Source: Methanofollis liminatans DSM 4140
GTDB taxonomy: Archaea > Halobacteriota > Methanomicrobia > Methanomicrobiales > Methanofollaceae
DNA: 64,000 nucleotides
Assembly (NCBI RefSeq): GCF_000275865.1
Contig: NZ_CM001555.1
Coordinates: 248,001-312,000 of the forward strand
Direction: 5' to 3'
Below are positions 55,082-59,354 of this stretch, piece by piece (within the stretch, counting starts at the first letter, position 1; each line of letters opens with the position of its first letter). A program made the translations under genes and the position numbers. The notes under the pieces were generated by a model, which was not told the origin of the DNA, searched no databases, and saw only the letters and a program-made list of their open reading frames with translations.

Positions 55082-55723
55082 ATCAGATCAGAGTGATACT
55101 GGCCAGTACTTATCGGTTTCGGACATGGCAGGCATCATGCCCCGCATTGATGATAGCGTCAATGCCATGCAATACATGATATATTTATATATTTGAACAT
55201 TCAACATATGATCGCCGACGTCCCATCCGAAGTGGGGAAATCTCGGACGGGGCGCAATCGACAGGAACACCAGCAGGCACCCGCAGATCACCTAACTCAA
55301 GCGGCACACACCAGCACGCGTGGGTGCCTGGATATTTCACCTCTCAAAAGGCGTCAACATTCATTCTTCCGGCGGGAGGCCGGCATCCTCCCATCCTGTG
55401 CACATTCACGTACACCTCACTCAGAAGAGGTTCCGGGGGCGCGGGGCACATGCCCCCTGGAAAGGTTTCACCCTTTGTACATTTTTTTTGTTCTTTGCTC
55501 TTTCACGCGGGGAACGCCCTGCCCGATCCCATCCCGCAGGTCCGCCCCTGATGGCGACCGGTCGTCCGGGATAACCCTGATGAGCCCGGGGAGGCCGGGC
55601 GAAGGCGTCGCGGCCGCCCACGCACGGGAATGAAGAGCCCTTTTTCCTTCCTGTATGGCGACCGGATCAACAGGAGTATCACGCCGCAGGTATCATCTTC
55701 TTAGCCGGGAGAGGTACGACGAG
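55082..55723. other. 640-bp gene-poor region with a palindrome and hairpin words
   Basis: No reading frame here looks protein-like; the frames open between 55193 and 55633 lack any familiar pattern. It holds the perfect 12-bp palindrome TACTGGCCAGTA (55096-55107) upstream of the HTH-PAS gene, an AT-rich promoter-like block GATATATTTATATATTTG (about 55178-55195), and a possible hairpin GGGGCACATGCCCC near 55444. An RNA gene driven by the AT-rich block is conceivable but not shown. Confidence 0.4.
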
Positions 55724-58004
55724 ATGGATACAACCGTTGCACTGAATTTTTTCTGGGAATCATTCTGGATCGACCGGTGGATGCGCCGCGACGCCGCCCC
55801 CCGGGACGCCGCCCTCCTGCATCTCTTTCTGATACGAAGGGCGAGGGACCCCGGTTTTGCGGCCTATTCCGCAGCCGCAGGTTTTTCTGACGACCGGGCG
55901 AAGGATGCGGTCAGGACGGCGCTTGCCGGCGCCCTTGCCGAAGACTGTGCTGATCTTTTCGGCGCCGGGAGGGACGCATATCTCTGGCGGCGGTACCTCG
56001 GCCTCCTGGATGCGGGCGATCTCCGTGGAGCGCGGCTCGTTGAGACGATGCTGTGCACGCCGGCGGAAGACGGCTATCTTGCCCCGCCGATCGCCGCCGG
56101 CGAGGGGCCGTCACGCTCGTCCTGGGAGCGGATGGAGAAGAGGGTGGTGATGTCGGAGATCCGGTATCCCGACCTCTACTTTGAGGCGCCCTATCTCAGG
56201 GACCTTTCGGGTGCGCAGATCAGCCCGGCCGACCTCGAGATCACCTCCTTCGCCGTCGAGAGCCTCAAAAACCTCCTCGGCGGAGCGATCCCGCCCGGAG
56301 ACGCCGGAACCTTCGAGCGTTTCATCAACGATGCAGGAATGATCATCGCCTTCTCCTGGTTCGCCGAAAAAACGTACGACGAACAGACGGCGATCCTGAA
56401 TGCGGTCTATCCGTTCAGCCTCGACGAGGAGACGCTGGACCGGTTCGTGGCGATCTTCGACGACTACGAGACCCTCCTCGAGGAGGCGGCCGGGCTTGTA
56501 AAACGCGGGTTTATCGAGGAGGCAAAGACCGTCTATGCCTATACGATCCTGCACGCGGGCGAGGCGGCCCTCCACCACGCCTGCTATGAGAACCTCGCCG
56601 TCCTCTTCAGGGAGGAGGGTGACTACGCCCGTGCCGGCGACTGCGCCGAACGCGCCCTCGCGATCAGAAAGGCCATGCCGGGCGCCGATCCCTACCTCGT
56701 CGCCCTCGGGGAGAAGAGCCTCTCGGAAGCGCTTTATTTGCAGGGCAAATCCGGTCGTGCGGCCGACCTGGTCGCCTCGGCGGTGGCGGCGGCCGACCGC
56801 CTCTCCCCCGAGAAGGCCAGGTCGCTCTTCTGGGCGATCGCCTCTTCGTTTCGGAGGACCGGGAGGTTTGAGGAGGAATACGCCCTGCTCACCCGCATCC
56901 TCGAAGGAGAGGGTGAAGGGGAGGCGATGGACGCTGCAATGGCGCGCCTCTTCTCGATGGACCAGTACGCCAGGGCCGACGGCTCCTTCGATATGGCCGG
57001 GCTTGCCGCCGTCGAGGAGCGGCGGCGCTACCTGGACTTTTTCGGCAAGGGTGCGGCCCTGCTCCAGGCCTTCCAGTTCGACCGCGCCATCGCCTGCTTC
57101 GGGGACGCCCTCGCGATCAGCCGTGACCTCGATCTCCTCAGGAACATCGCCATCGCCCACCGGCTGTACGGCTCGGCCGATGCGGCCAGGGAGTACTTCG
57201 GCATGGTGCGTGCCGAACGGCCCGCGGATGTCTTCTCCCTCATCCACCTCGGCCTGCTCGCCGGCGGGGAGGAGGGCGCCCGGCTGATCGGGCGGGGCAT
57301 CGCCGCCGCCCTCGAGGGGCGGATGGACCTCGCCCTCGTCCTCTACCCGATTGTCCGCGACGCCGTTGCCGACGGCGCGGTCCTCGATGCGATCGACCGT
57401 TCAGGCGATCTCCCGGCGCAGGGCGGGGGCCGGGCGCTCTACTATCTCGGGGCCGGGACGATCCTCGCCGATCTCGGCTTTTCCGGGGAGGCCGAAACCT
57501 GTTACCGCCGGGCCCTCAAGGCGACCCCGCCGTCCCCGGTGCGGGCGCGGGTGCTCAGGAATATGGGTGTGCTCGCCGCCGACGCCGGCAGTCCAGAACG
57601 CGGCGCCTCCCTGCCTCGACGGGGTCGTCAGGTACGTCGCCTGCTACCCGGCGGTGTGGCACGGCGTGGACGGGGTGCAGGAGGTCCTCAGGGATCCCGT
57701 CGGTGCGGCGGCGGCGGCGCGGGAAGCGGTGCGCCTCGCCCCGGCAGAGCCTGAATACGGGCGCGAGCGCGACCTGCGGGCGGCAGAAGAGGAGACCGCG
57801 CCCCCCGGGGTCGACGACCCGGTCGCCGCCGAACTCATCGCCGCAGGCGAGCGCCTGATCGAGCGGGAGGCGTGTGCGAAGCGTGCGCTCTTTGCCTATA
57901 GCGAGGCATTGCAGAGGGTCAGAGGCCGGGAAGAGATCGCTCTTACCGGGGGCTCCTATGCGGTGGCGCTCTCAGAGCGTGCCAGGATCTTCTCCCTGTT
58001 TTGA
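55724..58004 (+). pseudogene. TPR-repeat protein with a frameshift near its C-terminus
   Basis: From ATG 55724 the frame encodes about 620 residues of helical repeats. TPR-like units lie around residues 280-365 (EEAKTVYAYTILHAGEAALHHA, shown in part) and 440-540 (AFQFDRAIACFGDALAISRD). After about 57590 this frame becomes Gly/Arg-rich and stops at 57754. The +1 frame then continues as protein-like sequence (AREAVRLAPAEPEYGRERDL) to 58004. A single-base shift near 57590-57620 explains this. It may be a real lesion or a sequence error. The function is scaffold-like and unassigned. Confidence 0.6.
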
Positions 58005-58826
58005 GGAGAGGGCGGCGGCGACCGCCCCCGGCAGGTCGGCAGGACGCGCAACCACGGTCGAGGAGGCTTCGAGCATCAGGTTGACCGCCTCCGCCTCCCC
58101 GACCCGGCGGAAATCGGTCCGCAGGGCGACGACCGGGATGCCGCGGGCGTACGCGTACCCCATCTCCCACGCCGTCCCCGAATCGGCGTCGGCCCCGTCG
58201 ATGACGGCGACGACGATATCGACCCCCTTCAGGTCTTCGAGATTGTGCTCGAAGATCGCCCGCCCGTCCCCGGCGCTGCGTGCGGCGTCGTTGTCCCCGA
58301 CCTCCTGCGGGAGATAGACCTCGTAGAGCGCCGCCTCCAGCAGATCGCGCACCTCCCGGTTGAAGGCGCGTTCGGCCCGGGAGAAGAGCGGGGCGGCGAG
58401 GTACACCCGGTACCGGGCGAACTCGCAGACGTCGACCGCCCTGATCTCCGGGAACCGGGCGAGAAAAGCCCCCCGCCCAGGCACCCGCTCGTCCAGCCAT
58501 GTGCGGTTCACCCCGCAGGCCGGCGAGGAATCGACGCCGATGATGCAGAGCGGCGGGCCGCGCTCGTGGATCATCGCCCTCACCTCTTTTTCCATCCGGT
58601 CGAGGAGGGCGCGGAAGGCCGGGGTGTCCAGGCGCTCGACAAAGGTCGCGGGCGGGCGCGGCCGGCCGAGATAGGCGGTCTCAGGGCAGGGGAGGGGGAC
58701 GACTTCGATCGAGAAGCGCCGGCACCGCTCCAGGGCCCGCTCGAACGCCGCACGGTCGGACGGTTTTGTGATCCCCTCGGCCCGCAGGGAGGGGTCGAGG
58801 ATGCAGGGGGAGACCAGGACATACAT
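57972..58826 (-). CDS. TudS-like desulfidase fused to nucleoside 2-deoxyribosyltransferase-like domain
   Basis: A 284-residue two-domain protein. Residues 1-130 match TudS-related desulfidases: VSPCIL (Cys8), PLPCPET (Cys47) and GVDSSPACGVNRTW (Cys104), the three cysteines that bind a 4Fe-4S cluster for removing sulfur from thiouracil. Residues 138-284 match the nucleoside deoxyribosyltransferase fold: RVYLAAPLFSRAE, LKGVDIVVAVIDG and DADSGTAWEMGYAYARG with the catalytic Glu221. A thio-nucleoside salvage enzyme is a sensible reading. It overlaps the TPR gene tail by 33 bases. Confidence 0.78.
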   Translation of the reverse strand: MYVLVSPCILDPSLRAEGITKPSDRAAFERALERCRRFSIEVVPLPCPETAYLGRPRPPATFVERLDTPAFRALLDRMEKEVRAMIHERGPPLCIIGVDSSPACGVNRTWLDERVPGRGAFLARFPEIRAVDVCEFARYRVYLAAPLFSRAERAFNREVRDLLEAALYEVYLPQEVGDNDAARSAGDGRAIFEHNLEDLKGVDIVVAVIDGADADSGTAWEMGYAYARGIPVVALRTDFRRVGEAEAVNLMLEASSTVVARPADLPGAVAAALSSKQGEDPGTL

Positions 58827-58856
58827 TCAATAGGTGTCTGTGTCAAACCGGCATAG

Positions 58857-59354
58857 ATGATACGCCTCTTCGCCTTCAGGGACAACTCCTGCGATCCCAG
58901 GAAGTGCACGGTGAAGCGGATGGAGAAATGGGGGCAGGTGAAAGTCGTCGACACCCTCACCCGGATCCCGCGCTCGTCGCTCATCCTGGACCCGACGGCC
59001 GAGCGCGCCCTCTCCCCGGCCGACCGGGGCGTGCCCTCGATCACCGCCCTGGACTGCTCCTGGGAGGTGCTCGACTCGGTGACGGTGCGGCGCTGGCCGA
59101 CCCGCCGCGCCCTCCCCTACCTCGTCGCCGCCAACCCGGTGAACTTCGGCCGCCCCCTCCGCCTCACCTCGGTGGAGGCCTTTGCGGCGGCGCTCGTGAT
59201 CCTGGGCGAGGACGAGCAGGCTCGGGAGGTCCTCTCGAAGTTCAACTGGGGGATGCACTTCCTGGAGTTGAACGCCGACCCCCTCGCCGAGTACGCGGCG
59301 GCGAAGGACTCCACCGAGGTCGTGGCGATCCAGGCGCTGTATATGGGGGAGTGA
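58857..59354 (+). CDS. 16S/18S rRNA aminocarboxypropyltransferase Tsr3
   Basis: A 165-residue DUF367 protein. It transfers the 3-amino-3-carboxypropyl group of SAM to a pseudouridine of small-subunit rRNA. DNSCDPRKCTVKRMEKWG, LILDPTAERALSPADR, ITALDCSWE and ANPVNFGRPLRLTSVEAFA are family signatures. It lies divergent from the TudS-NDT gene and tail to tail with alpha-glucan phosphorylase. Length is usual for archaea. Confidence 0.93.
   Translation: MIRLFAFRDNSCDPRKCTVKRMEKWGQVKVVDTLTRIPRSSLILDPTAERALSPADRGVPSITALDCSWEVLDSVTVRRWPTRRALPYLVAANPVNFGRPLRLTSVEAFAAALVILGEDEQAREVLSKFNWGMHFLELNADPLAEYAAAKDSTEVVAIQALYMGE

Follow-up and report, generated by a model that had tools for sequence, protein, structure and literature searches.

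The desulfidase TudS (DUF523, PF04463; TudS_A structures 6z92/6z96) holds its [4Fe-4S] cluster by Cys10, Cys43 and Cys104, with assistance from Glu45, Ser101 and Ser103, and prefers 4-thio-UMP as substrate (PMC10611767). Another TudS fusion, RudS (TudS-DUF1722), acts on thiolated uridine. The TudS-related CD3072 family (NCBIfam NF045597, TudS_rel_CD3072) consists of stand-alone proteins of unproven function, with members across Methanosarcinales and relatives. In nucleoside deoxyribosyltransferases (NDTs, PF05014), such as DpNDT (7o62) and CtNDT (8rh3), Tyr7 contacts the Glu nucleophile (PMC11647913), and Phe at this position goes together with the use of ribonucleosides, as in the archaeal PF05014 enzyme AvNRT, the N-ribosyltransferase of Archaeoglobus veneficus (PMC7308715).

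Here we describe a protein of Methanofollis liminatans DSM 4140 in which a TudS-related domain is joined to an NDT, a partner unlike the DUF1722 of RudS. Its gene lies in a stretch of 64,000 nucleotides, referred to below as the window, to which all coordinates without a locus label apply. No paper dealing with DUF523 together with a deoxyribosyltransferase was found in the literature searched, and the papers on TudS and RudS make no mention of a deoxyribosyltransferase, in agreement with the sequence-only reading that preceded this analysis, which knew of no described pathway with this fusion. The protein is apparently a new architecture built from known kinds of domain, and the pair was apparently overlooked because its N-terminal half falls under the cut-offs of both public models.

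Domain architecture of the fusion protein

The fusion gene (57972-58826, minus strand) is a single open reading frame of 284 codons with an ATG start and a stop at 57972-57974. The product of 284 aa combines a TudS-related N-terminal domain (residues 1-137; 58416-58826, minus strand) with a C-terminal NDT domain (residues 138-284; 57975-58415, minus strand). The proposal that one protein joins both domains is thus upheld by the reading frame itself, and also by the full-length recurrence of the fusion in 132 of the 150 genomes of its order, Methanomicrobiales.

The two halves differ in how well they match the described families. The C-terminal half is, by its sequence, a clear member of the NDT family (Pfam Nuc_deoxyrib_tr PF05014, residues 141-243, E 2.4e-26, 92.6 bits against a cut-off of 28.8), and the NDT assignment made earlier is confirmed by this match and by an active-site signature that is invariant across the order. 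The N-terminal half remains below the cut-off both of PF04463 (2-thiour_desulf, residues 3-124, E 5.5e-6, 26.9 bits against 34.7) and of NF045597 (E 2.2e-16, 59.9 bits against a curated cut-off of 130), which no protein exceeded in the 21 genomes of the class, and no DUF1722 was matched in the fusion protein by the Pfam search. Alignment of the N-domain to canonical TudS by hhalign gave 89% probability (E about 2e-6; 2.2e-6), with the Cys, CPE and SPxC motifs in register, and TudS was not found among the PDB matches of the N-domain sequence profile. By the curated cut-offs this half is therefore only a remote relative of TudS and not a member, the sequence evidence being good but remote.

Conserved residues of the two predicted active sites

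Residue conservation was read from 33 diverse fusions. Invariant in the N-domain of all 33 are C8, R15, C35, C47, E49, S101, P102, C104 and G105. Cys8 (58803-58805, minus strand, as are all residues below), kept also in the stand-alone relatives, is a predicted [4Fe-4S] ligand corresponding to Cys10 of TudS_A, and Arg15 (58782-58784) is the counterpart of Arg17, which contacts the phosphate in docking (PMC10611767). Cys47-Pro-Glu49 (58680-58688) is predicted to supply a further cluster ligand and the catalytic Glu (TudS_A Cys43 and Glu45), and Ser101-Pro-Ala-Cys104 (58515-58526), aligned in the 33 fusions, the catalytic Ser and the third ligand (TudS_A Ser101 and Cys104). The order of the motifs and the spacing from the first Cys to the Arg are likewise those of TudS. 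Unlike TudS, the N-domain of the fusions, about 137 aa with another middle region, has mostly lost Ser103 (T in 13, A in 11, C in 5, S in 2 and V in 2 of the 33). The earlier description of a TudS-type domain is hence right as to the cluster-Cys motifs, which are in place, and overstated as to membership, given the missed cut-offs, the unconserved Ser103 and the structure search described below.

The nearest described family for this half is CD3072, with which it has every motif residue in common, although CD3072 members are stand-alone and the fusions score far under the family cut-off. Cys35 (58722-58724) is invariant in the fusions only: in other methanogens the stand-alone relatives share the motif residues but have no Cys here.

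In the NDT half, Y142, D215, E221, N249 and M251 are invariant in all 33 fusions. Asp215 to Glu221 (58164-58184) spans the predicted 5'-OH contact and glycosyl nucleophile (LlNDT Asp92 and Glu98), and Asn249-Leu-Met251 (58074-58082) corresponds to LlNDT Asn123 and Met125, which in NDTs are supplied across the subunit interface. Tyr142 (58401-58403) is the counterpart of LlNDT Tyr7 and, by the rule linking this residue to 2'-deoxyribose preference (PMC7308715), predicts 2'-deoxyribonucleosides as substrates of the NDT half; AvNRT, in contrast, has Phe here. The fusions resemble DpNDT, CtNDT and other NDTs in fold, Glu nucleophile, Asp, Asn/Met motif and deoxyribose-favouring Tyr, and differ from them, apart from the attached TudS-like domain, at the position of the base contact (LlNDT Asp72, CtNDT Asp62). 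Here M. liminatans has Asn195 (58242-58244), aligned with the D62N position of CtNDT 8pqp, and the Asp is mostly not kept across the fusions (H in 23, N in 7, C in 2 and D in 1 of 33). The residues singled out by the sequence-only reading, Cys8, Cys47, Cys104 and DADSGTAWEMGYA, are each found at the position given there. That reading had also named as a check whether homologues keep the three Cys and the NDT Glu, and C8, C47, C104 and E221 are present in every one of the 33.

As a separate observation on the Tyr7 position, a stand-alone NDT with Phe at this site in an Archaeoglobaceae-like archaeon (family f9, L102 4782-5847) overlaps a gene for DUF5591, a domain present in archaeosine synthase.

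Structure models

AlphaFold2 modelled the full-length fusion, as a single chain, with pLDDT 92.5 and pTM 0.88, and the N-domain alone with pLDDT 96.6. Foldseek placed the NDT half closest to DpNDT (7o62) among PDB structures (E 1.4e-10, TM by target 0.83-0.87). For the N-domain model no PDB match had E < 0.001 and TudS was absent from the best 50, the presence of TudS in that library being unconfirmed, and nothing was retrieved from a viral structure library. Fold prediction of both domains, which the sequence-only reading had proposed, thus confirmed the NDT fold against 7o62; for the N-domain it delivered a confident model with TudS outside the best 50 matches. In this model a strand precedes each of the three Cys motifs (strands 2-5, 41-44 and 95-98), an arrangement that would fit the motifs meeting at one sheet edge.

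Distribution and origin of the fusion

The order was sampled by 150 genomes from six families, and fusion counts were taken from the match rows. Matches occurred in 144 genomes, and in 107 of the 108 with completeness of 90% or more and contamination of 5% or less. The search in other methanogens, which the sequence-only reading had proposed, found the full-length fusion in one stretch in 132 genomes, in nearly all cases as a single open frame; its presence in so many genomes of the order indicates lasting selection. Five further genomes hold both parts interrupted by a frameshift, an insertion or a contig break, and five, all of family f3, hold the NDT part only.

Among 296 genomes of the phylum the fusion was found in this order only, NDT in the others standing alone with a length of about 150 aa, and elsewhere in archaea the TudS-related and NDT halves are separate genes. 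No fusion was found on plasmids; one plasmid hit (H13) that passed for a full fusion at 88% coverage consists of two genes, and part of its N-half falls on a mannonate dehydratase. Phages and viral contigs yielded NDT only, and a phage or defence origin was discarded on this ground and for want of a PADLOC match.

In a tree of NDT domains all fusions, together with the solo proteins of f3, fall on one side of a single marked branch (96/95), and the f3 solo proteins cluster with f3 fusions (99/96) on longer branches. Judged by this placement, the fusion arose once, and some f3 genomes subsequently lost the TudS part, after which the remaining NDT changed faster.

Stand-alone relatives and the thiolation background of the host

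A scan of the genome collection turned up the stand-alone TudS relative at 80 loci, most of them in Methanosarcinales, Methanotrichaceae, Methanocellales and ANME-2 and a few in bacteria. At one of them, in a Methanoperedenaceae genome (L191 4509-7355), the genes for a stand-alone NDT and for the TudS relative diverge, and after the latter come, with ends that overlap, the genes for an M10-like peptidase and for the tRNA s4U synthase ThiI. Here the two halves are linked a second time, independently of the fusion, and with a tie to tRNA 4-thiouridine, although one such locus in 80 may reflect chance adjacency. In five more loci of ANME-2 or Methanosarcinales this peptidase is likewise next to the TudS relative. 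Some 1-4 kb separate the TudS relative from an NcsA-like tRNA thiolase in 24 Methanosarcinaceae loci, and this linkage spans at least three named genera (Methanosarcina, Methanococcoides and Methanohalophilus). That the two halves form an operon in Methanosarcinaceae was considered and rejected, since the genes are unlinked there. Many genomes with NDT lack the TudS relative.

Other neighbours occur in some genomes. In Enterococcus gilvus (L214 4977-6019) a selenium operon has selB and selA, then the CD3072 gene and after it that of the ECF transporter subunit CD3073, an arrangement that suggests a deselenidase or a pair importing a thio-compound. In Peptostreptococcus the CD3072 gene is divergent from CD3073, and in a Methanocaldococcaceae genome (L211 1880-4360) the TudS relative is flanked by genes for an acyl-CoA dehydratase activase and a double-cubane-cluster reductase.

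Methanogens live in sulfide and thiolate their own tRNA. The host genome contains two copies of mcrA, so the term methanogen is correct, and encodes both ThiI and an NcsA-like protein, so that thiolated tRNA bases are to be expected. SelD above the cut-off was not found in this genome. A separate canonical TudS-DUF1722 protein of RudS type is encoded elsewhere in it (L091 964-2043, minus strand); plain s4U de-modification thus already has a candidate. This RudS-like copy keeps the third cluster Cys; in Methanosarcinaceae RudS-like proteins (L086, L087, L088 and L090) this residue is lost, as SPTIG replaces SPSCG.

Possible function of the fusion protein

The best explanation, to which we assign a probability of roughly 45%, is that the fusion may be a bifunctional enzyme for the salvage of thio-nucleobases and deoxynucleosides or for sanitation of their pool. 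In the TudS-like pocket C8, C47 and C104 would bind a [4Fe-4S] cluster whose one open iron would take up the sulfur of a thiolated pyrimidine; E49 and S101 would activate water for attack on the C=S carbon, and sulfide would depart through a [4Fe-5S] state. In the NDT pocket E221 would attack C1' of a 2'-deoxyribonucleoside, freeing the base, with water or another base receiving the sugar. Within one protein, the halves could free a thiolated base from deoxyribose, or put the repaired base back, and strip its sulfur to give uracil and sulfide. Such a role is supported by the invariance of six TudS-site residues (C8, C47, C104, E49, S101 and R15) and all five NDT-site residues, the register of the motifs with canonical TudS, the strand ahead of each motif in the model, the nearness of the NDT half to the characterised DpNDT, retention through the order, the NDT-TudS-ThiI cluster of Methanoperedenaceae, the NcsA-like neighbours and the thiolation genes of the host. 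Against it stand the N-domain scores under both curated cut-offs, the structure search without TudS in the best 50, the lost Ser103 and the His or Asn at the NDT base-contact position. Furthermore, the halves are separable, since some f3 genomes keep NDT beside the neighbouring gene tsr3 without the TudS half, in Methanosarcinaceae they are unlinked, and many genomes with NDT have no TudS relative. Finally, Tyr142 suggests deoxyribose, whereas the substrates of TudS are ribo-compounds. This tension would be resolved either by thio-deoxynucleosides as substrates, as in pool sanitation, or by two loosely coupled salvage steps. For the same reason recovery from tRNA turnover, put forward in the sequence-only reading, is plausible for the TudS half, but for a joint enzyme the deoxyribose predicted from Tyr142 fits poorly with plain tRNA turnover.

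Rather less probable, though to be taken seriously, is that both halves are active on different or sequential substrates other than thio-deoxynucleosides and that the fusion merely couples their expression: tRNA turnover would supply the TudS half with free thiouracil or 4-thio-UMP, and the NDT half would serve ordinary deoxynucleoside salvage. The preference of TudS for 4-thio-UMP (PMC10611767), the retained phosphate-contact residue R15, the deoxynucleosides predicted from Y142 and the f3 genomes with NDT alone would all agree with such loose coupling; the retention of one fusion event throughout the order, and the divergent Methanoperedenaceae pair as a second linkage, point instead to joint use. 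The bacterial contexts of CD3072 next to selenium genes or CD3073, and the Methanocaldococcaceae relative between activase and double-cubane reductase, raise the thought that a cluster-bearing N-domain acts on some other sulfur or selenium compound, for instance a thio-compound taken up from outside, or works as a deselenidase, roles that the bacterial relatives may have; we hold this unlikely, because the host lacks SelD above the cut-off, the NF045597 score sets the fused domain far apart from the bacterial members, and the gene contexts in archaea speak for tRNA thiolation. Were the N-domain a sensor or structural module that carries the cluster and controls NDT according to redox state or oxygen, this would account for the additional Cys35 specific to the fusions and for the persistence, on longer branches, of NDT without the N-domain in f3. 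Such a role would leave E49, S101 and R15, as invariant as the Cys, superfluous, and appears quite improbable. The NDT half might also be a (deoxy)nucleotide N-hydrolase like DNPH1 that sanitises thio-dNMPs, given that DNPH1 structures turn up further down the Foldseek list and TudS takes nucleotides (PMC10611767); the NLM motif and Asp215 are those of NDTs that act on nucleosides, and by sequence DpNDT and an E. faecalis NDT-like protein come closest rather than DNPH1, so that we give this very little credence.

The strongest form of the preferred bifunctional reading is a new enzyme class, in which one protein would recognise thiolated, or selenated, 2'-deoxynucleosides, free the base via a glycosyl-enzyme and remove its sulfur at an open [4Fe-4S] cluster, and in this way protect the pool of DNA precursors in methanogens; this extension we regard as doubtful. 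To our knowledge no salvage enzyme has been assigned to thiolated deoxynucleosides, and if the halves cooperate the fusion would be an enzyme that handles them. Nearly fixed in a methanogen order, it ties a putative Fe-S desulfidase to deoxynucleoside chemistry and offers a handle on the CD3072 family and its substrate.

Gene neighbourhood

The TPR-type gene upstream (55655-58004, plus strand) shows an apparent frameshift near 57500-57650, which seems to be either real or a sequencing error. Its own frame ends at 57754 in low-quality Arg/Gly-rich sequence, and another frame, in which the protein plausibly continues up to 58004, reaches into the 3' end of the fusion gene. On the other side lies the divergent tsr3, of the rRNA aminocarboxypropyltransferase family (58857-59354, plus strand; PF04034, E 1.3e-43), with a gap of 30 bp between the two start codons (58827-58856). 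The head-to-head order is conserved in 47 of the 48 fusion genomes examined, the exception being L120, and in f3 genomes without the TudS part (L104, L105, L129 and L130) NDT is still found near tsr3.
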